This document shows, piece after piece, positions 31,027 to 60,564 of a DNA stretch of 64,000 bases. The stretch covers positions 974,480-1,038,479 of the forward strand of contig BGKB01000021.1 of the NCBI GenBank assembly GCA_003116975.1, read 5' to 3'. This DNA comes from Aurantiochytrium sp. KH105 (lineage: Eukaryota > Sar > Bigyra > Thraustochytrida > Thraustochytriidae). Numbering within the stretch: position 1 is the first letter of the stretch; the number at the start of each line of letters is the position of its first letter. A model generated the notes under the pieces. That model was not told the origin of the DNA. It worked only from the letters and a program-made list of their open reading frames with translations, and did not search any database. A program made the translations under genes and the position numbers.

Positions 31027-34000
31027 TTAGAGATCAGTGCAGCTGCGCGGCCCGGAAATGGACTTTTTATCAGCACTCGTGCCGCCATCGAGATCAGAGA
31101 GGAGCGCGCATGTTTTCTTGTTGGACCCCTTGGCCGTGTAATTCCAGTGCGTGCACGTTTCGGCGTCACGACAAGCGGTTTGACAAGCTTGCCAGTTCTT
31201 GACGTTTGCAATCTGATCAAGCACCGTTCCTTGCGCTGCGGTCTTTTTGTTCTGACAGAATTGATGCACCGGATCGGCGGTCGACAATGTGAGAACGCCT
31301 GCAGTCCATCCGTTCTTGCGAATAACCTCGTGGTCCTGTCCACGAAGCAACATGCACTTTTTGCGCTTCGCAAAGTGATTAAAGTTGCCACACTCAGCGT
31401 CCTCGAAGCAAGCCTGCTGGCATGCCTCGGTGGTGGTAATCTTCGACTGAACCTTGATCTTGGTCTGCTTGGTGGGCTTAATGTAAAGACTTTCGCCAGT
31501 CGTCACGCTGAGGCCCGGGACGCAGCGGTCAAAGGCGGCGGCGTAGCTCCCCATCCCAAAGCCGTAGTCTTCGCAGATGGCCGAAGCGTCATAAGCAGAC
31601 TTTGCGCAGTAAGCAGAGTTGGTCGAGTTGAGCTTGCAGCCTGAAACACGGAGCTCGAGCTGGCCATGCCACATGATTGGAGGAATGCGGACGTCAGAGC
31701 GCTCAAAGTACGAGGTGCCGAGATTCCCGTAAGCCGGGGGCGACGTGAAATCGAGAGGACTCATTCTTTGCTGGATGAAGCGGAAGTAAAGGAGGCCACG
31801 GTTGGTGTCGAAGAAGTACGTGTCGCCGTTGCTTGCAAGCACCTCGGCAATGGAGTTGACGGATGTGAATTCGTGGTCACAGTACTGGTTCCAGACGGGG
31901 TTGCACCAGTAGGCCGCAACGTAGTGCAAGCTGATGGTGACTCCGCTGGGGTACGGGATGGCGATAAGGACAACGTCGTCTTCATCAATTTGGGCACCCT
32001 TGAAATCAATGCTCACTGGGCTTCCACTGTCAAAGAGGAAGAGCCAACCAAGTCCATTGGAAGGACCAGTAATGACAGGATTCCCCTTGATGGGGAGACC
32101 GACTTGGTCGGCAGCGTCCGGATCTTGGTATCCGAGATGGACGACGGAGCCAACTCGCGGACACTCGATTTGATCTCCGTTACCGCAAATCGTGTTGGCA
32201 TCGAATTTCGCGTCGAGTGCCTCGTCAAAGGCAATGGTGAAGCTTGAAATGCCACGACGATTGTCGTTGTCCTTGGAGACGTGATCGCAGAGGTACCAGA
32301 TGTCTTGGGTCGTACAGTCGTCGTCGGTGCGCCACCACTCGATACCCCCTCGCGCGGCACCAACGATCTTGGGTCCATCGGCCTCAGAGCCGAGAACAGT
32401 CCCGTCAGCGTCAAGCCAGTTGGCCAAGTAGCCGCTCACAGAAAGATAGTCTGAGACCGAAGGACGAATGAGCATGGAGGTGTCGACATTTTCATATTTG
32501 ACATTGCGTGTGGCCTGGAGAAACCCGGGCGCGTAGCGGTCCGAGTGCGTGAGGAAGCGCCAGACGGGACTGCCAGATGCGGCGTCGCCGCAATTGCGAA
32601 AAGTGATGCCGTCGATGATGTGGCGTTGGTGCGTGTCGTACCACTCAAAGCCCATATGGTATTGCGACCAACGTTTCTCGTACCAGCTTGTCCCTGGAAG
32701 TTCGGGGGTGAAGGAGTTGGAGCGACAGACAGTGAGCATGTTGTGCACGTAGTGGTAGCCCAAGATGGCAATGGCGCGTGTAACGTCATGCGCCTCGAGT
32801 CCATCGATGGTGCTGCGCGCGCCCCAATTGTTGAGCCCGTAGTTGGCGAGAAAGATCTTGGTGTTGGTGAAGACGAGATCGCACTCGGTGTATCGGCCCC
32901 AAGGGCTCGAATTAGTAGGGTCTGTGAGACACATTGTGCTTCTTCCGGACACTTCGCGACCGGGGTTGTAGAAGAGATCATCGGAGCTGTCGTCGACATG
33001 TTCGAGCTTGCCTCCTACGTAGATGCAGCCGCCCATGACCCACCAGATACCAGTGCCGTGACAGGTGTTACCGTCAAATTCGATGAAAGGGCGCTCTTCA
33101 GGGGTCATGCCCGGGTCGAATTCGAGGTCGCGATAGAACATGATGGCCTTGGGCATTTTCACAATGGCAAATCCCGCGTAACCTCCAGAAGCGGCGTTGC
33201 CAATGTACGAGTTGTATGCATTGGTAATGTAGATACCGCTGGCCGTGGTGTCGGCGGGCTGGGTGAGCATATCCGAGCTGTACACGTTGTCCATGAACTG
33301 CGCACCAGAGGTCCGAGGATATTCCATAAAGTGCACGTGACTGGCCAGGTTGTAGGCTAGCGTGTTCTTTTCTTCGACGCCATCTTCGCCACTGTAAAAG
33401 CAGTGCCCGATGGCGTCATAGGCGACGTTGTCCTGAAGAAGGGTGTTATTGGTGCCGTGAATGGTGGCACAGCGGTAGAATGTATGGTGCATACTCGAGT
33501 GTTTGAGGTACGAGCGAACACCACCTTCACCGATCAAGTGCACGTGCCACGGATAGCGCGCGAGCACATTGGTCTGACCCATGCGGTAAAGCTCGACGCC
33601 CTCGAAACGAGTCGTGGCATTCGGGCCCATGGCAATCGTGTGCCCGCCATAGCCCGTCAGCCACTTGTGCTCGCACGGATACGTGCCGTAGCCGCTGCTT
33701 TCGCAAATGTCATCTTCCGTATCGGTGGGCTCGGATGTCTCGTCGCCTTGAATGACAATGTTGCGCGAAAGTAGACCCACCTCGCCCTGGTACTCGGGAC
33801 CGCCATAGTGCGTGTATGCGAGGGCCTCGGTGAGCGTGATGCGCGAAAATTCGCCTTTAACGTGCACGTTTGCAATCTCGCGCACCTCGTTGCGATGCCA
33901 GTCGCGAGAGTCCTTGATTTCTGTTCCCGTGAGCACGAGGCGTTGGCCAGCACGCCAATTCACACGATGCTGAAGGTAAATTTGCGTGTCTCCTGCTGCG

Positions 34001-34647
34001 GCCGTGGCGGCCAGACGTGTCCAGGTCGGATGAAAAATGCTGCCGTGAATGTCGAGGGTGCCCGTGCCAACCGCGGCGATGCCCTTGTACCAGGCTGGGG
34101 CGGGGAGGCTGTCGGGGCGATCGCCGTGCAAAGTGATGACAATGTCGCTGTGCAGACGGCAGGATTCAGAGCCGAGGGTGAGCTTGCCCTCGACCTGCAT
34201 GCCGGTGGTGTTGAAGAAGATGTCTTCGTCCGCAAAGATGAGCTCTGAAGATGCTGGGATGGTGATCTTGCCATAGACGGTATCTGCGGAAACGGAGCAA
34301 CCGCCAAGAAGGACGCGCGTGTCTTCGGGGAGCACGACATCTTCGCCGTCGCCAGGGACGACACCCGAGGTCCAGGTTGCGGCGTCTTCCCAGGCGAGAA
34401 GGCCTGACTGGTCGTATGGGCAGTCAACTTGGTCGTCGAAGCCATCGGGAGGGGTATTGGGCGTATAGCGGAGCGTCACGACCTCGGTGGCGGTGGCCAT
34501 GCTGACGAGGCCGGATGTGGTGAAACCGCCATCGGCTGGGTACGCGGGTGGCGAGATGGTCGAGGTAGCAGGACATGCACCCTGTACGCCCTGGCCGGCC
34601 GAGATCAAGGCTAGTACTGCCACGGCGGTGATCTGGGGAAGGCGCAT
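31027..34647 (-). CDS. Secreted G8-domain/parallel-beta-helix protein with two PAN-like domains (CEMIP/TMEM2-like), paralogue 1
   Basis: A 1206-residue product. I chose the ATG at 34647 because it begins a signal peptide (MRLPQITAVAVLALISAGQG); an ATG 23 codons upstream would put basic residues before it. The G8 domain spans about 81-190 (LLAWEDAATWTSGVVPGDGE, then VVLPEDTRVLL and KITIPASSELIF). A long right-handed beta-helix region follows with CEMIP/TMEM2 hallmarks: RYPWHVHLIGEGG, SSMHHTFYRCATIHGTNNTL, then YDAIGHCFYSGEDGVEEKNT. Two PAN/Apple-like Cys modules end the protein (CQQACFEDAECGNFNHF, CMLLRG; and CQTACRDAETCTHWNY, CALLSDL). CEMIP and TMEM2 act on hyaluronan in animals; here glycan binding or cleavage outside the cell is inference. 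The first ~380 codons are nearly identical to paralogue 2, the rest much less so. No membrane anchor is visible. Confidence 0.88.
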   Translation of the reverse strand: MRLPQITAVAVLALISAGQGVQGACPATSTISPPAYPADGGFTTSGLVSMATATEVVTLRYTPNTPPDGFDDQVDCPYDQSGLLAWEDAATWTSGVVPGDGEDVVLPEDTRVLLGGCSVSADTVYGKITIPASSELIFADEDIFFNTTGMQVEGKLTLGSESCRLHSDIVITLHGDRPDSLPAPAWYKGIAAVGTGTLDIHGSIFHPTWTRLAATAAAGDTQIYLQHRVNWRAGQRLVLTGTEIKDSRDWHRNEVREIANVHVKGEFSRITLTEALAYTHYGGPEYQGEVGLLSRNIVIQGDETSEPTDTEDDICESSGYGTYPCEHKWLTGYGGHTIAMGPNATTRFEGVELYRMGQTNVLARYPWHVHLIGEGGVRSYLKHSSMHHTFYRCATIHGTNNTLLQDNVAYDAIGHCFYSGEDGVEEKNTLAYNLASHVHFMEYPRTSGAQFMDNVYSSDMLTQPADTTASGIYITNAYNSYIGNAASGGYAGFAIVKMPKAIMFYRDLEFDPGMTPEERPFIEFDGNTCHGTGIWWVMGGCIYVGGKLEHVDDSSDDLFYNPGREVSGRSTMCLTDPTNSSPWGRYTECDLVFTNTKIFLANYGLNNWGARSTIDGLEAHDVTRAIAILGYHYVHNMLTVCRSNSFTPELPGTSWYEKRWSQYHMGFEWYDTHQRHIIDGITFRNCGDAASGSPVWRFLTHSDRYAPGFLQATRNVKYENVDTSMLIRPSVSDYLSVSGYLANWLDADGTVLGSEADGPKIVGAARGGIEWWRTDDDCTTQDIWYLCDHVSKDNDNRRGISSFTIAFDEALDAKFDANTICGNGDQIECPRVGSVVHLGYQDPDAADQVGLPIKGNPVITGPSNGLGWLFLFDSGSPVSIDFKGAQIDEDDVVLIAIPYPSGVTISLHYVAAYWCNPVWNQYCDHEFTSVNSIAEVLASNGDTYFFDTNRGLLYFRFIQQRMSPLDFTSPPAYGNLGTSYFERSDVRIPPIMWHGQLELRVSGCKLNSTNSAYCAKSAYDASAICEDYGFGMGSYAAAFDRCVPGLSVTTGESLYIKPTKQTKIKVQSKITTTEACQQACFEDAECGNFNHFAKRKKCMLLRGQDHEVIRKNGWTAGVLTLSTADPVHQFCQNKKTAAQGTVLDQIANVKNWQACQTACRDAETCTHWNYTAKGSNKKTCALLSDLDGGTSADKKSISGPRSCTDL

Positions 34648-35529
34648 TGCCTTTATTCTCTTTATCGTTTGGTTGGGTTGGTGGCGTTTCGTGTTTGCTT
34701 GAAGGCGGCGTGGCATACCTGCCAGAACGACACCAGTGTGCCGGGAGCCGGAGCGGCGGCCCTCCAGAGCGAGGAGCGCTCACTTTCTTTTCCCCATCTC
34801 TTGCGACAGCGGGGTCGCTCGCTAGGAGCTTGGCGCGAAAGAGGGAAGGAAGGCGAGAAAAGCCAACCTGCGGTTGTCCGACGGCCGGTCCCGATGCTCG
34901 AAGTTGGGACACGGCGCGAATGCACGGCGCTGGCCATAACGGAAATTGTAGCGGAGCTGGCTAGGAGCTGGTTAGGGGATGGCTAGGCGGACATTGCAGA
35001 AAAAAGTACACACCCTCTTTTTTTCTTTTTTTTCCAACGCGAGACTTTTTGAAAAACTGCGAGACTCTTTTTTTTGTTTTCCCCACTTTGATTGACAACG
35101 AGCAAATGACTGATCTTTTCAAGGGTTGGGCTGGGACATAAGGCGGCGTGAGTGATGGTAAAAGAAGAAAAACGATTTCGATGCGAAAGATCTCGTAGGC
35201 GAAGCACGCGGGCAAGGTGTCCGGTTGAGTAAAAGCACACTGTGACACTGGCAACTTGAAGGGAATCGGTGTGGACGTGACAAGAATTTTGGCTCTCCTT
35301 TCCTGAGTGCGTTGTCCGCCGCATGGAAGGTTCATAGTCCTGCTTGGCGACGTGACGTTTGGGCGTTCGAAAAAGGTAGGAGCCTTCAAGATCCGTCTTT
35401 CATGATGTCATGCCGATGAAAGCGCACATGTCTCATGTGCAGCGTCGCAGAGGGTGTTGCGGCAAGAGGCCATGTCAAGTGTAGCTACTTCGCTCGTTGG
35501 TTCAAAGAGAACAAGCAGGCCGAGAGACG
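34648..35529. other. 5' flank of G8 paralogue 1 and spacer
   Basis: About 880 bp with poly-T stretches near 35020-35075. It is expected to hold the promoter of the G8 gene. I see no gene in it. Confidence 0.5.
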
Positions 35530-36480
35530 TGTGTGTGAGCTCGAGGTTGACATGAGCATACGTAAGCCTACAGGTTCAGAGGCTTGTGTACTTGAGATGG
35601 AAGAGAACCTGTCGCGCGAGGCCAAGATAAGCATATTTTCAAGCCCATAGGCCTAAAACCCTGTGCCGGAGATGGTGGCGCGAGGCTCAGAGAAACATCC
35701 GTTTTGGCCCCGTATTCTTGACGCCCTGTGCTCGAGATGGAAGAGAAGCTGTCGCGCGAGGCCAAGACCAGCAGGCTTGAGCCCGTACGTCCAGAGACTT
35801 GTGTGCTCGAAATTAACATGAGCTTACGTAAGCCTTAAGGTTCAAAGACTTGTGCTTGAGATGAAAGAGAACCTGTCGCGCGAGGCTAAGATAAGCATAC
35901 TTTCAAGCCCATAAGCCTAAAAACTCGTGCCTGAGATGGTGGCGCGAGGCCCAGAGAAACATCCTTTTTCCCCCTGTATTCTTGACGACCTGTGCTCGAG
36001 ATGGAAGAGAAGCTGTCGCGCGAGGCCAAGACTAGCAGGCTTGAGCCCATACGTCCAGAGACTTGTGTGCTCGAAATTAACATGAGCATACGTAAGCCTT
36101 AAGGTTCAAAGACTTGTGCTTGAGATGGAAGAGAACCTGTCGCGCGAGGCCAAGATAAGCATACTTTCAAGCCCATAGGCCTAAAAGCCTGTGCCGGAGA
36201 TGGTGGCGCGAGGCCCAGAGAAGCATCCTTTTTTGCCCTGTATTCTTGAAGACCTGTGCTCGAGATGGAGGAGACCCTGTCGCGCGAGGTTAAGGCAAGC
36301 ATGCTTGAGCCCGTAGGTTCAAAGACTTATGCTTGAGATAAAAGAGTCCGTTTGACGCGAAGTCATGATACGCATACCAAAGCCCATAAGCCTTGAGACC
36401 TGTGCAAGAAGTTCTGGATCGAAAGAAAAAGTACAAGGCAAGAGCCTCGCTCATAGGCTTAGAGACCTGTCCTTGCATTG
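35530..36480. repeat. Higher-order tandem repeat, 264-bp period
   Basis: The block CCTGTCGCGCGAGGC-AAGATAAGCAT recurs at 35608, 35872 and 36136, exactly 264 bp apart. Each 264-bp unit contains four related subrepeats starting at GAGATG or GAAATT (for example 35594, 35669, 35734, 35809), with lengths 75, 65, 75 and 49 bp. After three units the array decays up to about 36480. Because 264 is divisible by three, similar open frames repeat on both strands, but stops interrupt them, so I read it as non-coding. Confidence 0.88.
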
Positions 36481-43702: not shown

Positions 43703-46700
43703 TTACAATGGTTTGCACTCGCGGGGACCCGACGTCGCGCCGCTCAGAGGAGATGAACTCGCAAAGGCCGACAGCAACGTGCATGAGCCCTCTTGCAAGA
43801 CGTAATGGACACATGCCGCATCGTTCAAGCACTGCCGCTGACAGTAGCGATAATTCCAACGGGTCGAAAAGCTTCGCAACAGCGTGCCCGTCGCGGTCGT
43901 ATCGTGGTGTCGGCAGAACGAAGTTACGGGTTCATCGCCTGGGCAATCAAAGAAGCCAGAAGTCCACGCATCCTTGTACAGGAGCTCGTGCGTATCCTTT
44001 CGCAAAAGGTTGCAACGTCTCTTCTCTCCCTTGTAATTGTACGCCTGGCATGCCTCGTGCTTTCGGCACTCGTCCTGGCATGCCGTCACCGAATCCACCT
44101 CCCACACGGTCACCAATACGGTCTTACTCGTCGGTCCAATGTATCTGCCCTCCATGGTCGACACTGTGCATGCTTCTGAGTCCGCGCTCGTTGGCGCCAA
44201 TGTCGTTGGCGTCTGCGTCGGTGTCTGCGTTGGAGCCAATGTCGTTGGTGTCTGCGTCGGTGTCTGGGTGGGCGCCAACGTCGTTGGCATCTGCGTCGGT
44301 GTCTGCGTCGGAGCCAATGTCGTTGGCGTCTGCGTCAGTGTCTGCGTCGGAGCCAATGTCGTCGGCGTCTGCGTTGGTGTCTGCGTCAGAGCCAATGTCG
44401 TCGGCGTCTGCGTTGGTGTCTGCGTCGGAGCCAATGTCGTTGGCGTCTGCGTCGGTGTCTGCGTCGGAGCCAATGTCGTTGGTGCACTTGTTGGGTTGAA
44501 CGTTGGCAGCACCACTGCAGAGGAAGGAACACATGTGTCGTAGGCAATCTGCGTGCTGCCCGCCGGATATCCAAATTCCGAGCAGATATCCGTGTCATCA
44601 TATTCCGACTTTTCACAAAAGTTCTCGTTCGTTGCATTAAGCGTGCACCCGCTGGCCTCGATCACAATTCCTCCGCCAGAGACGGTACCGGGGATTCTCG
44701 TCATGTTGTCATGCTCAAAGTAAGAAAGACCAAGATTACCATAGCCAGGAGCTTGGGAAAAGTCGAGGGCATCCCGTTTCTGAGGCGTGAAGCGGACAAA
44801 AAAGAGCCCGCGACTCGCGCTAAAGTAATACTGATCGCCAACGCCGTCGAGCATCTCGCGTAGTGACGTCGCCTTGGTGAATACGTGCTCGCAGGTATTG
44901 TACTTGGGCTTGCACCAAGACACTGCCTCGTACGTGACGCGAAATGTCGTTCCGGCGGGATATGGCATGACAATGATGACGGTGTCGTCCTCGTCAATCT
45001 GAGGCTTGGAAAACTTGGCGCTCACTGGCGAACCAGCGTCAAAGAGGAGAAGCCAGCCCAGTCCGTTGGTAGGACCTGTCACTACGGCGTTGCCGCGGAT
45101 GGGAAGACCCACCTCTGCAGGATCGCCTGCTTGTCCGAGGTGCATGGCCGAGCCAATGCGAGGGCAAGGCGTTGAGCCAACATTCATGCAAATGTTGTTG
45201 GCTGCGAACTGAGCCTGCACTTCCGGATCCACCACGGCCGTAAAGCTTCCTACGCCCCGTCGTTGACCCGATGCGGGTGCCAGTCGGTCGCAATTGTACC
45301 ACATGCCCTCTTGCGTGCAATTGTCGTCGAGGCGCCACCACTCGACGCCATCACGCGCAGCGCCAATGAGCTTGGGTCCACTCGAGCCGTCCTCGACACC
45401 GCCGAAAGCAGTGCCGTCGTCATCCACCCAGTTGGCCAAAGCACCGCTCACCGAAAGGAGACTCTGAGACGAGGGCATCACCAGGGCCTCGCGGTCTACA
45501 TTCTCGTACTTGACGCGTCGTGAGCTCTGCATCAGACCTGGCACATATCTGTCCGAGTGTGTGAGAAAGCGCCACACGGGGTAGTTCTTTTTGGCATTTC
45601 CGCAATTACGAAAGGTGATGCCGTCAATCAGATGTGCCTGCAGCGTGTCGTACCACTCGAAACCCACGTGCTTTCCTAGGTGCCAGAGCTTTTCGTAGTA
45701 GTGCGAGCTCGGTTTCTCTGGTACAAAGCCCGACGAAGTACGGCACTCGGTCAGCATGTTGTGCACATAGTGCGAGCCAATGATGGCTGCGGCGCGCATG
45801 GTGTCATGCGCCTCAAAGGCATCGATGCTTCCTCGAGCGCCCCAGTTGTTGATTCCAATGTTGCTCAGGAAAATTTTAGTATTGTTCATGACCAGAGGGC
45901 ATTTGACGAGCGAGCCGTCTGCTGTGGTGCACTTTGTGTCGCGGCCTGAGACGATGCGGCCCGGATTGTACGAGAGCGCGCTCGAATCTGCGCTCGGGTG
46001 CCACAACTGACCACCAACGTAAATGCACGACTGAAAAACCCACCACGACGACCCTACGGAGTGGCAGCTGTTGCCCTCAAAAGCAAGAAAGGGAAGCGAG
46101 TGAGGCACGTCACGACCTGAGCGCGTCTGCGCGTCGCGAAACACCATGATGGGCTTGGGCAGTCGCACCACCGCAAAACCCGCGTAACCTCCCGAAGCGG
46201 CGTTGCCAATGTACGAGTTGTATGCATTGGTAATGTAAAAGGGTGACGCGGTGGTGTCCGCAGGCTGGGTGAGATTTTCGTAGCTCGAAATGGCCGACAT
46301 CTTTTGTGCGTAGGCCGTTCGCGGGTACTCCATGAAATGCACATGGCTACCTAGATTGAACGCGACCGTATTGTTCTCTTCAACGCCGTCCTCGCCACTG
46401 TAAAAGCAGTGCCCGATGGCATCGTAGGCGACGTTGTCCTGTACAAGCGTGTTGTGCGTTCCATGGATGGTGGCGCAGCGGTAGAATGTATGGTGCATGC
46501 TCGAGTGTTTGAGGTACGAGCGAAAGCCACCCTCGCCAATCACATGCACGTGCCACGGATAGCGCGCGAGCACATTAGTCTGACCCATGCGGTAAAGCTC
46601 GACGCCCTCGAAACGAGTCGTGGCATTCGGGCCCATGGCAATCGTGTGCCCGCCATAGCCCGTCAGCCACTTGTGCTCGCACGGGTACGTGCCGAACTTG

Positions 46701-47653
46701 TCGTGCTCGCACACATCGTTGTCCGTATCCGTGGGCTCGGACGTCTCGTCGCCTTGAATGACAATGTTGCGCGAAAGAAGACCCACCTCGCCCTGATACT
46801 CGGGGCCGCCATAGTGCGTGTATGCAAGAGCCTCGGTGAGCGTGATGCGCGAAAATTCGCCATTTACCTGCACGTCTGCAATCTTGCGCACCTCGTTGCG
46901 ATGCCAGTCGCGAGAGTCCTTGATTTCTGTTCCCGTGAGTACGAGGCGTTGGCCAGCACGCCAATTCACACGATGCTGAAGGTAAATTTGCGTGTCTCCT
47001 GCCGCGGCCGTGGCGGCCAGTCGTGTCCAGGTCGGATGAAAAATGCTGCCGTGAATGTCGAGGGTGCCCGTGCCAACCGCGGCGATGCCCTTGTACCAGG
47101 CTGGGGCGGGGAGGCTGTCGGGGCGATCGCCGTGCAAAGTGATGACAATGTCGCTGTGCAGACGGCAGGATTCAGAGCCGAGGGTGAGCTTGCCCTCGAC
47201 CTGCATGCCGGTGGTGTTGAAGAAGATGTCTTCGTCCGCAAAGATGAGCTCTGAAGATGCTGGGATGGTGATCTTGCCATGGACGGTATCTGCGGAAACG
47301 GAGCAACCGCCAAGAAGGACGCGCGTGTCTTCGGGGAGCACGACATCTTCGCCGTCGCCAGGGACGACACCCGAGGTCCAGGTTGCGGCGTCTTCCCAGG
47401 CGAGAAGGCCTGACTGGTCGTATGGGCAGTCAACTTGGTCGTCGAAGCCATCGGGAGGGGTATTGGGCGTGTATTGAAGAGTCACGACCTCGGTGGCGGC
47501 GGCCATGCTGATGAGGCCGGATGTGGTGAAACCGCCATCGGCTGGGTACGCGGGTGGCGTGGTGGTCGACGTGACAGAGCACGCTTGGCCTTGCACATCC
47601 TGGCCGAGCAAAGTTATACATGCTAGAGAAAGCAAAGCGCTGTGGTGTTTCAT
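43703..47653 (-). CDS. Secreted G8-domain/parallel-beta-helix protein with Thr/Pro linker and two PAN-like domains, paralogue 2
   Basis: A 1316-residue product starting MKHHSALLSLACITLLGQDV, a signal peptide. The open frame extends 228 codons upstream, but that part does not look like protein. The order is G8 (LLAWEDAATWTSGVVPGDGE), beta-helix with RYPWHVHVIGEGG and SSMHHTFYRCATIHGTHNTL, a Thr/Pro linker near residues 1056-1154, and two PAN/Apple-like modules (CQDECRKHEACQAYNYKG, CNLLRKD; CQRQCLNDAACVHY, CTLLSAF). The linker consists of about 7.5 copies of the 13-mer PTTLAPTQTPTQT, is probably O-glycosylated, and is absent from paralogue 1. The Cys residues and beta-helix motifs are shared by the paralogues. 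It is likely extracellular, with an inferred role in glycan binding or processing. The two genes lie on the same strand with the FNT gene and the repeat region between them. Confidence 0.88.
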   Translation of the reverse strand: MKHHSALLSLACITLLGQDVQGQACSVTSTTTPPAYPADGGFTTSGLISMAAATEVVTLQYTPNTPPDGFDDQVDCPYDQSGLLAWEDAATWTSGVVPGDGEDVVLPEDTRVLLGGCSVSADTVHGKITIPASSELIFADEDIFFNTTGMQVEGKLTLGSESCRLHSDIVITLHGDRPDSLPAPAWYKGIAAVGTGTLDIHGSIFHPTWTRLAATAAAGDTQIYLQHRVNWRAGQRLVLTGTEIKDSRDWHRNEVRKIADVQVNGEFSRITLTEALAYTHYGGPEYQGEVGLLSRNIVIQGDETSEPTDTDNDVCEHDKFGTYPCEHKWLTGYGGHTIAMGPNATTRFEGVELYRMGQTNVLARYPWHVHVIGEGGFRSYLKHSSMHHTFYRCATIHGTHNTLVQDNVAYDAIGHCFYSGEDGVEENNTVAFNLGSHVHFMEYPRTAYAQKMSAISSYENLTQPADTTASPFYITNAYNSYIGNAASGGYAGFAVVRLPKPIMVFRDAQTRSGRDVPHSLPFLAFEGNSCHSVGSSWWVFQSCIYVGGQLWHPSADSSALSYNPGRIVSGRDTKCTTADGSLVKCPLVMNNTKIFLSNIGINNWGARGSIDAFEAHDTMRAAAIIGSHYVHNMLTECRTSSGFVPEKPSSHYYEKLWHLGKHVGFEWYDTLQAHLIDGITFRNCGNAKKNYPVWRFLTHSDRYVPGLMQSSRRVKYENVDREALVMPSSQSLLSVSGALANWVDDDGTAFGGVEDGSSGPKLIGAARDGVEWWRLDDNCTQEGMWYNCDRLAPASGQRRGVGSFTAVVDPEVQAQFAANNICMNVGSTPCPRIGSAMHLGQAGDPAEVGLPIRGNAVVTGPTNGLGWLLLFDAGSPVSAKFSKPQIDEDDTVIIVMPYPAGTTFRVTYEAVSWCKPKYNTCEHVFTKATSLREMLDGVGDQYYFSASRGLFFVRFTPQKRDALDFSQAPGYGNLGLSYFEHDNMTRIPGTVSGGGIVIEASGCTLNATNENFCEKSEYDDTDICSEFGYPAGSTQIAYDTCVPSSAVVLPTFNPTSAPTTLAPTQTPTQTPTTLAPTQTPTQTPTTLALTQTPTQTPTTLAPTQTLTQTPTTLAPTQTPTQMPTTLAPTQTPTQTPTTLAPTQTPTQTPTTLAPTSADSEACTVSTMEGRYIGPTSKTVLVTVWEVDSVTACQDECRKHEACQAYNYKGEKRRCNLLRKDTHELLYKDAWTSGFFDCPGDEPVTSFCRHHDTTATGTLLRSFSTRWNYRYCQRQCLNDAACVHYVLQEGSCTLLSAFASSSPLSGATSGPRECKPL
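44190..44487. repeat. 39-bp coding minisatellite (Thr/Pro linker)
   Basis: About 7.5 tandem copies of a 39-bp unit containing GCCAATGTCGTTGGCGTCTG on the + strand. They encode PTTLAPTQTPTQT, with single-residue variants (L for P, M for T) in some copies. Confidence 0.92.
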
Positions 47654-49650
47654 GATTTTTTTGTTCAGGTTTCGAAATTGTTGAGATCGAGAGTTCAGGT
47701 TTTGCTTGCCAGCTCGCTTGCTCACTTGCCTGCGTGCTTTGGCGTAGCAGACAATTATCTTTCGGCCCTGTACGGAAGCGAGCGGCCTCCGCGCGCAAAG
47801 CACAGCAAGGCCGAGCAGAGCAGGCTCATTGTGGCGCAGAGCCTGAAGAGCGCTCGGGACAAAAGAAACGCCATTAATTTGTTTGCGAGGTGCGGCGAAC
47901 AGCTGGCGCGGACGTGTATATCGCCTCGCCAGGACTCTACGCCGGCTCCCGCGCCGTCGCGCGCCCCGACACCCAAAGACGGACAGATACAAGAGAAAAA
48001 AAAATTGAAGAAAAAAAGATATGTAGTACAAGGACGTCCCTCTCCGCCCGCCATTGCCACAGCCAGCAGCAGGCCGCAGCGCCGGCTCAACGGATAGCCT
48101 GACGTGCATGCACTCTTCACGCATGTACACGCAGCAGTCCCTGTGGGAGCGCCGCGGACCCGCCACATGGCTGGCATGGCTGAAGGCAGCTAGAGCCAGC
48201 TGGAGCTGGAGCTGGCTGCTACAGGTCGTAGAGGGCAGCTGCAGGTCGCTGTCGCGCGCCATGGAGAGGCACGAATAATTGCTCGATCGAGGTACCGTGT
48301 CCGCGCTTTGGTCACAGCTTGTGGTCCGAAGTAACATGACGTGCCAGTGGAGCGCACTCTCTCTTCACTCCTCGACGCATGCGAGACGCGAGGTCGCCGT
48401 GCACGATTCTACGAGCTTACGCCGGAGCCTGGCCTGCGCGAGACCGCCGGCGACGAGACCTCGAGATCGCTGCTGCACAGCCTGAGGGCGAGAACCTCGA
48501 GAACTGCCACGGGCAGCAGTGCACGCGCGAGGCTTACCGCACGTCCGCGCAAGCCCGGCCAGGCGGCGGCCAACACCCCAAGGCGGCCCGCCACGCCACG
48601 CCACACCACGCCACGCCACGCCGCCCGCCGCCATCGCCCACGCCATCGTCCACGCCCAGCAGCAATTTGCGTTGCGCAGAATGCGTTGCGCAGCCGGAGC
48701 AACGGAGCTTCGTTTTACAGCGACTTTTGAGAAAGAGGAAAAACCGGCGCGCATAGGGGGCACGTACACTTTCGGCTGTTCGCGTGCAGCGCACTGGAGC
48801 GTTTGTAAAAATAAAAGGAAGGTGAATCCTTGGCCTGAGAGTACGCGCGTGCGTTGCATGGAGCGCGGCTGCAAATGTAAATGGTCGTCCTCTTTTTCTC
48901 ACTCTACATTACTTCCGACGTGTTCAACGCCGTACGAAGCGGGAAGCCAGGGTATATATGCACGCTCGAGGGCAGCTTGATAACAGGAGTCATGGCTTCC
49001 CGCAAAAGCTGTTCAAATTTGACAGGAGCAGGCTTGAGAATCAAAGGGGCAGGCAGATACGCGAACTCTATTCAACGAAGATTTTTTACCTTTGCCGTAA
49101 TCTGCAGTACATTCGCTCATTCGCAGCATAAGGTTCTTCCGGTCTTACTTTCGATTGTTTCACTACCACTACCCCCATCCGAACTTTCTCTCAGCTCCAG
49201 CTTCAATACGTTTTCTTTTTCTTTCTTTTTCTTAAACGGAAGCCCTCATTGTCGTGTGGAATCCTGCAGAGATCATCCAAAAACCGAAGCGCTCGGTGTA
49301 TGCGCCACAATCTGCATGTGACTTAGGCCTATCAAGTATTCTAGGCCAAGCTCAGCGCCTCCCCCATCGATAAGATCGTGCTCAAGCAAAAAAAGAAAAA
49401 AAAGAAAAACATTCAACACCGGGACCTCGCGTGCAGTCCCCTATCACACTACTAACCCGACCCTACGTGACTTTTCTGCTCAGTGCGAATGAGATGAGGA
49501 GTTGCCCACGTGGTATGATCGAATGTACTCGACATGAGGAATCTGGTTCATATATAGAATTGTGGAAGTATTTGCTGGTTGTATGGAGCGCGAAATCTGA
49601 GCAGATGCAAAGCCCTCCACAAGTTTTTGAGAAAAAACTTGCCCTCTACG
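47654..49650. other. Intergenic region, 5' flank of G8 paralogue 2
   Basis: About 2 kb. Near 48595-48640 there is a CCACG/CCACA repeat and near 48190-48220 an AGCTGG repeat. Short open frames exist on both strands (for example 48881-49321 +), but none has a recognisable motif. It probably carries the promoter of the G8 gene and the 3' UTR of the FG-GAP gene. Confidence 0.45.
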
Positions 49651-56052: not shown

Positions 56053-59000
56053 CTAAAGGCTCAGGGTCTCCGATTCGAGTCCTTCAACATGCAAGATGTG
56101 TACCAATCCACTGAGGTCGCTGAGAACGTAAACGTTTCCCTGACGGACTGTGCTACTGATCGGGTGGTCCGTCGTGAAGCCAATGCCAAAGCCAAGCCTC
56201 ACATGCGTTTCGTTCTGAACATTCACCAGAGTGCATATGCCAGAAGAAGTCAATACCTCTGTCTCCTCATCGGCGCCAAGTTCCTCACCCGTTCGAGCAT
56301 TCCAGAAGCGAGTGGTCCTATCGAGTGACCATGACAAGACCGTATCGTCCTCGATCGCAACACTCGTGACCCAATCAGAGTGCCCCTCCAACACGTGCTG
56401 CTCCTCGCCCGTCGTAGCGCTCCAGATGCGCACCGTGCCGTCTCTTGACCCTGAAACAATTGTATCACCTTCAATCGCCACGCTCAAGACCGGACCAGAG
56501 TGGCCCTCCAGCACGTGCTGCTCCTCGCCCGACGTAGCGTCCCAGATGCGCACTGTGCAATCACCAGACCCTGACACAATTGTGTCGCCCTCAATCGCTA
56601 CGCTCCTGACCCAGTCAGAGTGACCCTTCAGCACCTGCTGCTCCTCGCCCGACGAAGCGTCCCAAATGCGGACCGTGTGGTCATCGGACGCCGACGCAAT
56701 TGCGCCGCCTTCAATTGCCACACTATGGATCGCACGAGTGTGCCCCTCCAAGACATGCTGCTGCTCGCCCGATGTAACGTTCCAGATTCGCACTGTACGA
56801 TCTTCGGACCCTGACGCGACAGTGTCGCCCTCTATCGCTACGCTTCTGACCCAATCAGAGTGCCCCTTCAACACGTGCTGCTCCTCGCCCGATGTAGCGT
56901 CCCAGATGCGCACCGTTTTATCCTCGGACCCAGACACAACCACGTCGCCCTCAATCGCCACGCTATAGGTGCGAAGTGAGTGCCCCTCCAATACGTGCTG
57001 TTTTTCGCCCAGCGTTGCGTTCCAGATGCGCACCGTATCGTCACCGGACCCAGACACAACCAAGTCGCCCTGAATCGCCACGCTTGAGACCGCTTCAGAG
57101 TGCCCCTTCAACACGTGCTGCTCCTCGCCCGACGTCGCGTTCCAGATACGCACCGTCCCGTCATAGGAGCCAGAAACGACTGTTTCGCCCTCAATCGCCA
57201 CGCTCCAGACAATACCGGAGTGCCCCTTCAACACGTGCTGCTCCTCGCCCAAAGTCGCGTTCCAGATGCGCACCGTCCCGTCATAGGACCCAGAAACGAC
57301 TGTATCGCCCGCAATTGCCACGCTCCAAACCACACCCGAGTGTCCCTTCAACACATGCTGCTCCTCGCCCGACGTAGTGTCCCAGATGCGCACCGTACCG
57401 TCTCTTGACCCTAAAGCGATTGTTTCGCCTTCAATCGCCACGCTCAAGATCCCACGAAAGTGCCCCTTTAACACGTGCTGCTCCTCGCCCGACGTGGCGT
57501 TCCAGACGCGTACCGTGTTGTCTAAAGACCCTGATACAATGGTGTCGCCATTGATCGCCACACAATTGACTCGATGAGAGTGCCCCTGCAGCACGTGCTG
57601 CTGCTCGCCCGTCGTAGCGTTCCAAATGCGCACCGTCTTGTCATCGGATCCTGACACTATCCGATCTCCATCAACCGCCACGCTATATACCAAATCAGAG
57701 TGGCCCTTCAACACGTGCTGTTCCTCGCCCGACGTCGCATTCCAGACGCGCACCGTGCCGTCCCCGGACCCTGAAACAACCGTGTCATCCTTCATCGCCA
57801 CGCTAGTAACCAGACCAGAGTGCCCCTTTAACACGTGAAGCAAGGGGTCACGGGGGTGAGCAAGGGTGACGCGAGAAGGCTCCAGCCATGGCTGATCAGG
57901 TGCTTGCAGACTACGTGCCAAGGGATCTTTCGAGTCGTGACCAAGACGCGCCAGAACTTGCGACGCAAGTTCGTCGGGGTCGTAGCTGAGGGCATGCACT
58001 GCTTTGCTCAGGAAACGGGGCGTATCACTTTCGGGCGCAAAGTAGATGCCGAGTTCGACGCAGTCGCGAATGAGGTTTCCGATTGAGGCATGCCTTTGCA
58101 CTTCATCGTTACCGACAGAGATGGCGCTCTGTACCCATGCAAAGTCATTCAGGAGCTCGAAAGCCTCAGCGTGCTCGCCGCTCTTGACGAGGTGAAAGAC
58201 GGCGTGACGGAGCGAGAAAACGTCGTCCCGCGAGCTGCTGCAGTAGTCGGCTAAGGCAATATGGCCATCGTCAATGTCCACGCCAAGATCTCCGCTCAGG
58301 TCGTCATCCAGCAGCCAGTCTGCCATTCGCTTGTGGATGAGCGCCACGCGATCATCGCCGCTCTGGTACAAGAGATTACGCGCGTTGCCAATGATCGTTT
58401 GGGTCTTCTTCTTGGTTTTGCCAAAAATCACGGTGAGTTGCTCGACGCTCAGCGGCTCGCGTGCCGCCACGATAGGAGTCAGTAGGGACTGATAGGCATC
58501 GTCACCGCCCATCTTGTCGCGCAGGCGCTCAAAATACTCCTCGAACATGCCGCCAAGCCCGTTGGGAATGGCGTCTTTGTGGGAGATGTCTTGCGCGGTC
58601 AGTAATCCACCTCGCTTCACCTCGTGCATCCGGTTCAGGGTCTCAGGAAGGAAGCTCGCCCAGAGAAAGAGACCTTCGGATCGTTCGGAAAGAATCTTGG
58701 CGCAGGAAGCAACGTCTTTCTGTTCCACGATATCTTTCATGTCGCGGAGTAGATTTTTGATATGAAGCTCGATGTCGCGAAAGTTCTCTCTGTCCGTGAG
58801 CTCCAGCACTTTGGAATTAAGGCTGTTGTTGGTGACGCCGCGTTGAATCTCGCCTTCGGGACGTGTGCTCACGACCAAGCTGAGCCATGAGGGCATCACA
58901 TCCTTCCACGTGCGAACAATATCCCGCAAAACAGCGTCGCTCTTGCTACACTCGTCGAGAGCGTCGAGCACAACCACTTGTCGCATCTGGTTGGAGTCGA

Positions 59001-60564
59001 GCCTGTTCAAAGGATCAACGAGAATGGTCTGGAACACGTCGACCAGAGGCTTGTCGCGGACATCGCTAAGGCTCACAGAATCAAGCTCATTGACAAAGCC
59101 GGGTACGCTCTGACAGAGCTGCCATGCAATGCTGACAAGAGCCTCTTTCGGTGCAGCAGTCGTGACTTGATCATGACGAAAGAAATGGTACGCGGCCACC
59201 AAGATGGGCTGGCGCTCTTTTTTGCTACGACGCCACAGGCTACGTATACGCGACGACTTTCGGCGCGGCTCGACGCTTCCAACGGCCTTGATCTTTTCGA
59301 CATCTTCGTCAGTTTTAAGAGCGCCTCCACGGTGGCAAAGCTCGGCCATGATGACGCTTTTGCCAACGCCGCCGTCGCCTACGAGAATAAAGGCGGCACT
59401 CTGGTTCTTGTTGTACCAGTCGCAAAACTCGTCGATGATCCAGCTCCGCGTGCCGGAGGTAAAGTTCACCGCCTTACCCTTGGCCCAAGCCTCTGAGTTG
59501 CAGGGGTTCAAGCGAGAGTTGATGTCGCGCGTCAAGGCCGTGACATCAAATGAAGCCTTGGGCGTCTCAATGCGCAAGGAAATGGCATCAGCGAGGCGGT
59601 CGATCGCCTCAACTGATAAGGTGATCAGGTCCACGGGAACCTGGCGCGATAGTCCGCGCTTGAAGCGCCCGATCCATTTCGTCGAAGCCTTCATCATATC
59701 CGGTTCCAGAGCAGCAACCACAATACGATCGAAGCGTTTGCTACCAGCATACTGGAACTCCTTGAGGCAGTTATCGGCGTAGTTACCGCTGTTGATCTTG
59801 TCCATGTACCTTTTGGTTGCGAGAATGAGGAAGACCTTTGATGTTTCGATGCCCATTGCCATACTCTCGTCAGTGCTTGTTGACATCTCATTGTCATCGA
59901 GCCACGCTTCGAGACCTCTGTCACGCAGTTCCCGAGCGATCACAATAGCCTTTTCGTGAGCACTCCATTCATGAGAAACGAAGAAGTGAAAGTCCTTGCT
60001 GTTCAGTGTTGGTGAAGCACGAGCTCGGGCGGCAAAGACTTGGGCCATGATCGCATGAATGTCAGCCCTGATGGGATCGCAGAAATCGACGTAGAGAAGA
60101 TTGGGCATGTACCATGCTATCGCGCCTTTCCAGTCCTTTTGTTCATACATTGTATCGTCGATGAGGATGGGTATAAGCGCGTTCGGGAGGACTCTCGCCG
60201 CTGCTTCAACGAGCTTCCAGTTGCTTTGGAGTGCCGAGCCCACGAGAAGTAGAGCGACCTCGGCATTTTTGGCCTCCTTTTCTGCCTCAGCAGCTTGTCT
60301 TGCGGTGTGTACAGGCACGCTGAGGCGAGGCTGGATCGCTTCAACAAGCTGCTCGGCCACGGTCTCGTCCGCGGGATCGTGTACAACGAGAACAGCAATG
60401 TCGTTCAGTACCTCAGGGTCCTCAGGAAGCGCCTCCGCCTGGTTCATCGTGACAGCCTGCCGCTCTGCCTCCGCCTGCGTGGCTTCGTCCCCCTCAACCT
60501 CAGGGTACGCTCCGCCGACGTGACCTTTGTTGAAGCGCGCAATCAAGTCCTGCACCCTTCCCAT
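56053..60564 (-). CDS. TIR-TIR-NACHT-WD40 NLR-like STAND protein
   Basis: A 1503-residue product from ATG (MGRVQDLIARFNKGHVGG) to TAG. Residues about 55-165 are a degenerate TIR-like fold (IAVLVVHDPADETVAEQLVE). Residues about 190-300 are a clearer TIR domain (DFHFFVSHEWSAHEKAIVIA, then WLDDNEM and NCLKEFQYAG); the Glu of NCLKEF lies where NAD-cleaving TIRs keep their catalytic Glu. A NACHT-type NTPase follows with Walker A ILVGDGGVGKS near 398 and Walker B VVVLDALDEC near 530. LFLWASFL and a helical region run to about 900. Residues about 907-1430 are thirteen WD40 repeats of exactly 40 residues (consensus HVLKGHSxxVxSVAIEGDTV then VSGSxDxTVRIWNATSGEEQ), with a degenerate last blade. There is no signal peptide or TM helix. 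STAND proteins of this plan sense a ligand through the repeats, oligomerise by the NTPase and signal by the N-terminal domain; an immune or self/non-self role is inference. Confidence 0.92.
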   Translation of the reverse strand: MGRVQDLIARFNKGHVGGAYPEVEGDEATQAEAERQAVTMNQAEALPEDPEVLNDIAVLVVHDPADETVAEQLVEAIQPRLSVPVHTARQAAEAEKEAKNAEVALLLVGSALQSNWKLVEAAARVLPNALIPILIDDTMYEQKDWKGAIAWYMPNLLYVDFCDPIRADIHAIMAQVFAARARASPTLNSKDFHFFVSHEWSAHEKAIVIARELRDRGLEAWLDDNEMSTSTDESMAMGIETSKVFLILATKRYMDKINSGNYADNCLKEFQYAGSKRFDRIVVAALEPDMMKASTKWIGRFKRGLSRQVPVDLITLSVEAIDRLADAISLRIETPKASFDVTALTRDINSRLNPCNSEAWAKGKAVNFTSGTRSWIIDEFCDWYNKNQSAAFILVGDGGVGKSVIMAELCHRGGALKTDEDVEKIKAVGSVEPRRKSSRIRSLWRRSKKERQPILVAAYHFFRHDQVTTAAPKEALVSIAWQLCQSVPGFVNELDSVSLSDVRDKPLVDVFQTILVDPLNRLDSNQMRQVVVLDALDECSKSDAVLRDIVRTWKDVMPSWLSLVVSTRPEGEIQRGVTNNSLNSKVLELTDRENFRDIELHIKNLLRDMKDIVEQKDVASCAKILSERSEGLFLWASFLPETLNRMHEVKRGGLLTAQDISHKDAIPNGLGGMFEEYFERLRDKMGGDDAYQSLLTPIVAAREPLSVEQLTVIFGKTKKKTQTIIGNARNLLYQSGDDRVALIHKRMADWLLDDDLSGDLGVDIDDGHIALADYCSSSRDDVFSLRHAVFHLVKSGEHAEAFELLNDFAWVQSAISVGNDEVQRHASIGNLIRDCVELGIYFAPESDTPRFLSKAVHALSYDPDELASQVLARLGHDSKDPLARSLQAPDQPWLEPSRVTLAHPRDPLLHVLKGHSGLVTSVAMKDDTVVSGSGDGTVRVWNATSGEEQHVLKGHSDLVYSVAVDGDRIVSGSDDKTVRIWNATTGEQQHVLQGHSHRVNCVAINGDTIVSGSLDNTVRVWNATSGEEQHVLKGHFRGILSVAIEGETIALGSRDGTVRIWDTTSGEEQHVLKGHSGVVWSVAIAGDTVVSGSYDGTVRIWNATLGEEQHVLKGHSGIVWSVAIEGETVVSGSYDGTVRIWNATSGEEQHVLKGHSEAVSSVAIQGDLVVSGSGDDTVRIWNATLGEKQHVLEGHSLRTYSVAIEGDVVVSGSEDKTVRIWDATSGEEQHVLKGHSDWVRSVAIEGDTVASGSEDRTVRIWNVTSGEQQHVLEGHTRAIHSVAIEGGAIASASDDHTVRIWDASSGEEQQVLKGHSDWVRSVAIEGDTIVSGSGDCTVRIWDATSGEEQHVLEGHSGPVLSVAIEGDTIVSGSRDGTVRIWSATTGEEQHVLEGHSDWVTSVAIEDDTVLSWSLDRTTRFWNARTGEELGADEETEVLTSSGICTLVNVQNETHVRLGFGIGFTTDHPISSTVRQGNVYVLSDLSGLVHILHVEGLESETLSL
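56275..57840 (-). repeat. Thirteen 120-bp coding tandem repeats (WD40)
   Basis: The units keep exact 120-bp register and are very similar at DNA level; on the + strand the block CACGTGCTGCTCCTCGCCCG recurs in most units. Sequence differences cluster in a few codons per unit. Confidence 0.95.

Follow-up and report, generated by a model that had tools for sequence, protein, structure and literature searches.

A candidate TIR-NACHT-WD40 receptor family of thraustochytrids diversified at the WD40 positions known from fungal HNWD proteins

This study describes a gene of the thraustochytrid Aurantiochytrium sp. KH105 together with its relatives, which, judging from their sequences, probably form a TIR-NACHT-WD40 receptor family that is under diversifying selection and works like the HNWD proteins of Podospora anserina, with TIR as the effector. 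The preliminary description of this DNA had proposed that the gene may be an analogous innate-immune or allorecognition receptor. For the family this proposal stood, since the same positions are diversified, unit backbones are exchanged, amino-acid changes are in excess at these positions, and a TIR domain with a conserved Glu takes the place of HET; for the gene itself it stood only in part. As the HET domain is absent, the family is not a member of HNWD.

Architecture of the gene and extent of the family

The window, namely the whole stretch of 64,000 nucleotides that was analysed, reaches the end of contig C21 in an assembly of 76 Mb and 367 contigs. The gene lies at 56053..60564 on the reverse strand, as do all of its parts given below, and is an uninterrupted, intronless open reading frame of 1503 amino acids, with an allele of equal length at C68:7486-11997. 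Its N-terminal domain (about residues 55-180; 60025..60402) is kept in paralogs, has no accepted Pfam family of its own, and is possibly a second, degenerate TIR-like fold. The TIR domain follows at residues 191-345 (59530..59994), with a Pfam TIR_2 score of 58.7 bits against a cut-off of 28. TIR_2 was the sole accepted Pfam family in residues 1-345, where two stretches pass separately (the best at 194-288), and no HET domain was among the Pfam families listed for these residues. The NACHT/NPHP3_N NTPase (about residues 380-580; 58825..59427) carries the Walker A motif GDGGVGKS and the Walker B motif VVVLDALDEC; NPHP3_N reached 70.4 bits, above its cut-off, and NACHT (PF05729) 20.6 bits, below its cut-off of 26.7. 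A TANC1-type winged helix recognised by Pfam (residues 692-785; 58210..58491) is followed by 13 WD40 units of 40 residues each (residues 909-1428; 56281..57840), every one with hypervariable columns 9, 10, 12, 26, and 28, and by a C-terminal tail (residues 1429-1503; 56056..56280), which is in frame in 26 of the 29 arrays examined and is a probable divergent closing blade.

The Walker A and B residues that were checked were invariant in all 28 rows of the family alignment, and the TIR glutamate E269 (within NCLKEF) was Glu in 27 rows and Asp in one. The Asp was seen in L033, of the C88 haplotype, and the C59 haplotype has Glu. E269 aligns, in a weak match (E 0.27), with the Glu of WVHKE in the nematode NAD+ hydrolase tir-1, which we take to be the catalytic residue; the family resembles TIR NADases such as tir-1 in its TIR effector and in a Glu at the aligned place. 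With TIR, a STAND-type NTPase, and a repeat sensor in one chain, the window gene fits a TIR-NLR in the broad sense. Plant TIR-NLRs share the TIR effector and the P-loop switch and differ in the sensor repeats and the NTPase families. A PADLOC search returned weak matches alone, the best being Avs1b at 1.4e-07.

The TIR-NACHT part matched 56 stretches in its own genome, representing about 50 places with both haplotypes taken together, a lower bound because 51 of the 239 first-look candidates were scored. The WD40 part matched at least 119 stretches (71 of 566 candidates scored). A 39-base stretch of the unit backbone occurred 241 times with up to two mismatches, and the same pattern read backwards did not occur. 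The unit set comprised 30 arrays with 278 units, 234 of which scored at least 75 bits; the 44 units below this value were excluded, most of them being length variants or degenerate last blades. Paralogs with an in-frame tail (26 arrays) have 6 to 14 blades. Mean internal identity was at least 0.85 in six of the 29 arrays with three or more units, 85% being the criterion for high internal conservation of WD40 arrays (PMC4986451), and was 0.69 in the window gene.

The closest named proteins are those of Hondaea fermentalgiana (Stramenopiles, Thraustochytrida). Residues 1-870 of the window gene share 98.2% identity with P0002 of that species, and the N parts of P0005 and P0006 are each 99.0% identical to those of KH105 genes C59 and C27:538400, respectively. 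On these identities, the genome probably comes from a strain of Hondaea fermentalgiana or from a near relative. Outside this species, P0011 and P0012 (35-42% identity) retain the full architecture at high score, with about 8000 candidates scored per search; the five and four units recognised in them are 0.41 and 0.39 alike, so internal conservation is not high. The Pfam list of the distant P0076 (26%) contains TIR_2, NPHP3_N, HTH_TANC1, and WD40. In the parts of the literature accessible to us, papers on thraustochytrids and NACHT concerned fatty acids and fish feed alone, and no immune title was among the matches listed for Hondaea; a search combining thraustochytrids, NACHT, and WD40 found none.

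Thirteen of the 24 family places on contigs of at least 100 kb have a contig end at most 25 kb away, where 3.2 would be expected, in a count that covered 30 of the approximately 50 places and contains some haplotype pairs. Members near contig ends were seen on C21, C68, C138, C232, C59, C88, C19, C17, C27, and others. A subtelomeric location is not claimed, because an exact run of four TTAGGG occurs nowhere in the assembly and the family itself may break assemblies. The window has 11 open reading frames of at least 380 amino acids, the gene included, and Pfam searches of six neighbouring ones found no immune-type domain. G8, CEMIP beta-helix, and PAN domains occur in two large, related genes at 31027-34716 and 43703-48337 (both reverse strand), which are 80% alike in part and have further partial copies elsewhere in the genome (67-90%). 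Tandem arrays were also seen at 35534-36328 (a 264-base unit, three copies) and 44189-44482 (a 39-base unit, 7.5 copies). Opposite the WD40 array, the forward-strand open frames 56976-57377 and 56231-56623 were rejected as genes; the 120-base period probably gives rise to them. Other NACHT genes with long open frames were found at C59:194619-198155 and C88:194103-197639 (L001, L002) and on C145 and C67 (L003, L004); all four pass the Pfam NACHT cut-off, which the window gene misses.

Variable columns of the WD40 unit

With QHVLKGHS taken as columns 1-8 of the unit, the units of the window gene start at residues 909, 949, and so on to 1389, and every spacing is exactly 40. The thirteen repeats of exactly 40 residues named in the preliminary description were therefore correct in both coordinates and unit length, and the variable residues listed there agree with the translation in each unit. 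The same columns lead the entropy ranking, namely column 12 with 2.93 bits, column 10 with 2.87, column 26 with 2.57, column 28 with 2.50, and column 9 with 2.32, the sixth being column 17 with 1.85 bits. Mean pairwise identity of the units was 0.69 over all columns; the five columns alone gave 0.11 and the remaining 35 gave 0.77. To call these repeats nearly identical was thus an overstatement for the window gene, at 69%, although it is true of paralogs such as C61, C155, and C24.

Across 28 other arrays, which exclude the window gene and its allele, variability in the 208 units was again highest at the same five columns (2.25-3.68 bits of entropy, against 1.47 for the next column). Not all of these arrays are independent, since C59 and C88, at least, are a haplotype pair. 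By simple arithmetic, the chance of five given columns out of 40 coinciding is 1 in 658,008, a figure that, for homologous arrays, describes the coincidence of columns and not the independence of genes. Among 33 units of the published subfamily proteins P0001, P0003, and P0010, columns 36, 5, 17, and 8 were also in the top eight, and column 9 was not.

The HNWD unit has 42 residues, a length that fits the published numbering, and the thraustochytrid unit is two residues shorter. The length of 40 residues was found in 169 of the 189 parsed units. In eight units, the contact loop at column 26 was longer by 5-6 residues, with the form GSG(G/E)... and variation of its own, and one unit had a 5-residue insert near column 12; the other 11, of lengths other than 40, 45, or 46, were left uninterpreted. 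The units with 5-6 additional residues at this D-1 contact site were seen in arrays L043, L025, L050, L048, and L020, and each has at least one aromatic residue between the usual backbone flanks. No description of long D-1 loops was found in the accessible parts of the HNWD literature (PMC1805685, PMC12222747).

In the HNWD genes of Podospora, codons 7, 9, 25, and 27, which flank the conserved codons 8 and 26, are under positive selection (PMC1805685), and in a later numbering the positions of high dN/dS are 10, 11, 12, 14, 30, 32, and 39 (PMC12222747). In the thraustochytrid unit, columns 10 and 12 flank V11, and columns 26 and 28 flank D27. Matched by hand from the motif and not by alignment with Podospora sequences, columns 9, 10, 12, 26, and 28 correspond to HNWD positions 11, 12, 14, 30, and 32 of PMC12222747, and four of the five to codons 7, 9, 25, and 27 of PMC1805685. 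Columns 10, 12, and 26 are, in addition, the WD40 top-face contact sites R1-2, R1, and D-1 (PMC3419727). As far as the accessible parts of the two HNWD papers go, the claim that the same positions are diversified as in HNWD holds at the level of the family.

Exchange and selection in active and frozen members

Among the 234 units, 203 different sets of the five residues were counted. No difference in 105 backbone nucleotides was present in 249 unit pairs between genes, which fall in 68 gene pairs involving 19 of the 30 genes, and the hypervariable codons differed between units of identical backbone in these gene pairs. The TIR-NACHT identity of the 68 pairs was 79.0-99.1% (median 88.1), the maximum being the window allele pair. 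In frozen members, for example the window gene (pS 0.49), synonymous sites of the backbone are free to vary, so the identity of backbones elsewhere indicates recent homogenisation and not a constraint on the DNA. The exchange is partial and has not erased gene ancestry, since nearest-unit backbone divergence tracks TIR-NACHT divergence (Spearman 0.70 over 435 gene pairs; means of 5.9% and 16.0%). A core set of 89 distinct units with at most three backbone differences from the consensus was obtained after removal of four duplicate 120-mers from 93, and its 209 backbone-identical pairs, within and between genes, differed on average at 7.7 of 15 hypervariable nucleotides. The concerted evolution of repeats that the preliminary description cites for HNWD thus has a partial parallel in the family, where backbone-identical units connect 68 gene pairs, but not in the window gene, the array of which is not homogenised.

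Two states can be distinguished in the family. In active arrays (C61, C155, C24, C40, C34, and others) the frames are uniform; in frozen arrays the frames have diverged and the specificities are stable. Within-array backbone distance in active arrays such as C61, C155, and C24 was 0.005-0.023. The window gene is a frozen member, with a distance of 0.210 within its array and 0.200 to other arrays (allele included). Its C68 allele, a true haplotig, matches it in the number (13) and order of units, so the shuffling of repeat number and order that the parallel with HNWD had led the preliminary description to expect was not found between the two haplotypes. The two copies differ by three amino-acid-changing and three silent differences in the 65 hypervariable codons, and by 11 and 13, respectively, in the 455 other codons.

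Other comparisons gave varied results. C59, C88, and P0005 of Hondaea fermentalgiana have identical hypervariable residues in five intact units; in the degenerate sixth unit, C59 and C88 differ at three of five hypervariable residues, and both have six blades. Three further pairs may be alleles, orthologs, or close paralogs. Between C27:538400 and C297 (TIR-NACHT 93.0%), 19 of 180 hypervariable nucleotides and 110 of 1260 others differ, approximately the same rate; between C185 and C19 (94.7%), the counts are 47 of 150 hypervariable nucleotides versus 59 of 1050 others. P0004 and the closest KH105 gene, C72:5773 (N part 94%), differ at seven of ten hypervariable residues in the two units compared. 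The likeness of C59, C88, and P0005 and the backbone-level rate between C27:538400 and C297 indicate that not every member diversifies fast.

The dN/dS comparison between repeats that had been proposed beforehand revealed an excess of amino-acid changes at the five columns. Among one-nucleotide codon differences in the 89 core units, the ratio of nonsynonymous to synonymous differences, scaled to the opportunities for each, was 2.43 at the five columns (bootstrap 1.57-3.83) and 0.35 elsewhere (0.25-0.52); at the five columns it exceeded 1 in 300 of 300 bootstraps over genes and was 1.34-4.55 for single columns. The Nei-Gojobori estimate over all 208 other units was a pN/pS of 1.23 at the five columns versus 0.36 elsewhere, and within the window gene 1.24 versus 0.24. 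Third-position C/T differences, which are always silent, were 3.2 times as frequent at the five columns as in the backbone (1.2-7.1), and the variability of first and second positions was 27.8 times that of the backbone (22-36). This disparity indicates that selection explains most of the excess, and it leaves room for a moderate local rise in mutation rate, or for older variants, at the five codons. No proof of selection was drawn from the raw totals of 834 nonsynonymous and 23 synonymous codon differences, since a predominance of nonsynonymous differences would be expected of fully random codons too. Linkage between hypervariable nucleotides was strong within codons (mean z 6.3), low between codons up to 12 nt apart (1.0), and absent at 40-59 nt (-0.1), a pattern expected from recurrent change and recombination.

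Putative function and alternative explanations

The gene product would be an intracellular NLR-type receptor, one of a large thraustochytrid family. Its propeller faces may bind a ligand, probably proteinaceous, that is variable and of non-self or modified-self origin; such binding would free the NACHT domain and let the receptor oligomerise, and the clustered TIR domains would then cleave NAD+, leading to a defence response or cell death. Point mutation, together with diversifying selection, would generate new specificities at the five codons, and units would spread within and between genes through gene conversion or unequal crossing-over, which would also keep the frame uniform.

Several known systems are comparable. 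Like HNWD of Podospora anserina (HET-E, HET-D, HET-R), the family combines NACHT with a WD40 array diversified at the same positions, exchanges units within and between genes, and carries beyond the array a divergent region, possibly the closing part of the propeller, cryptic blades being seen in HET-E models (PMC12222747). It occupies about 50 places, with both haplotypes assembled, versus 10 genes of HNWD (PMC1805685). Unlike HNWD, it belongs to Stramenopiles and not fungi, has TIR for HET, a 40-residue unit, and length variants of the D-1 loop, and has no known phenotype. The best PDB sequence match was 2ymu, presumably a cyanobacterial protein, and the repetitive WD40 proteins of cyanobacteria (2ymu, WRAP) likewise have near-identical blades. 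They differ in being prokaryotic, and WRAP has TIR and propeller on separate chains, its gene being coupled to a STAND gene with TIR (PMC9218822). Multicellular bacteria have NACHT proteins with hypervariable sensors diversified by DGRs (PMC10907252); these rely on reverse-transcriptase mutagenesis of lectin domains, whereas the pattern seen in the thraustochytrid codons was not one of random scrambling.

Among the alternatives, allorecognition, in which the receptors would detect polymorphic proteins of conspecific individuals on cell or nuclear fusion in the way that HET-E and HET-D detect HET-C, appears unlikely. The sharing of diversified positions with HNWD speaks for this reading, as does the difference between P0004 and C72:5773 at seven of ten hypervariable residues. 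However, frozen members are nearly alike between strains: P0005 equals C59 in five units, and a single residue in the listed sets separates P0006 from C27:538400. Thraustochytrids were also without mention among the literature matches listed, in a search not specific to their fusion incompatibility. A process aimed at the five codons, either DGR-like or a micro-conversion from cassettes, in place of selection alone is distinctly unlikely. Random mutagenesis would scramble third positions, but third bases are column-specific (column 26 is never C in 89 units). At columns 10 and 26, the same amino acid is encoded by the same codon more often than under independent drawing of codon positions (0 of 300 simulations in both cases), an excess that was not significant at columns 9, 12, and 28 (68, 27, and 18 of 300). 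The mean of 7.7 differing hypervariable nucleotides between backbone-identical core pairs would suit such a process, and so would the absence of linkage between codons 40-59 nt apart and the weak linkage of neighbouring hypervariable codons (columns 9-10 and 26-28 exceeded all but 4 and 1 of 500 permutations). Always-synonymous differences are somewhat raised at the five columns, and third positions of neighbouring codons slightly so (0.069 versus 0.031), but the synonymous rise of 3.2 is far below the nonsynonymous one of 27.8. Moreover, the 100 backbone-core matches listed of the 241 lie on family contigs, with no separate template among them.

Surface residues of WD40 proteins vary in general, which was counted in favour of ordinary WD40 scaffold proteins whose exposed loop residues are under relaxed constraint, a reading to which we give a slim chance. 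Variation at hotspot sites is also seen in highly repetitive WD40 proteins from prokaryotes and lower eukaryotes (PMC5587647), and the all-units estimate of 1.23 is just slightly above 1; nevertheless, relaxation agrees poorly with a five-column ratio above 1 in every core-set bootstrap, with the TIR-NACHT architecture, and with the size of the family. An assembly or polishing artefact of long repeats deserves next to no credence. The partial published proteins P0002, P0004, P0007, P0008, P0009, and P0083 do stop short of the array or within it, and their contigs measure 2.2-4.4 kb, but the differences preserve the frame, hit the same columns across many genes, and occur in the separately published P0004, P0006, and P0007, apparently from a second strain. 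Diversifying selection on a TIR-NACHT-WD40 receptor family thus remains the probable explanation.

This family provides a system for testing the source of receptor diversity, whether selection, conversion, or targeted mutation. It is very unlikely, but conceivable, that the few hundred near-identical blades, most with their own five-contact set and a minority with longer loops, are subject to a dedicated recombination or editing process that reassorts blades or codons between genes in vegetative growth. If so, clonal lines would differ in specificity, amounting to an adaptive-like receptor system in a protist. The residue-level solution of HNWD recurs in a stramenopile with another effector, which suggests that it was reached repeatedly or is much older than thought. 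If our reading is correct, a unicellular marine eukaryote has a large candidate immune repertoire, in a family whose published proteins often break off at the arrays.
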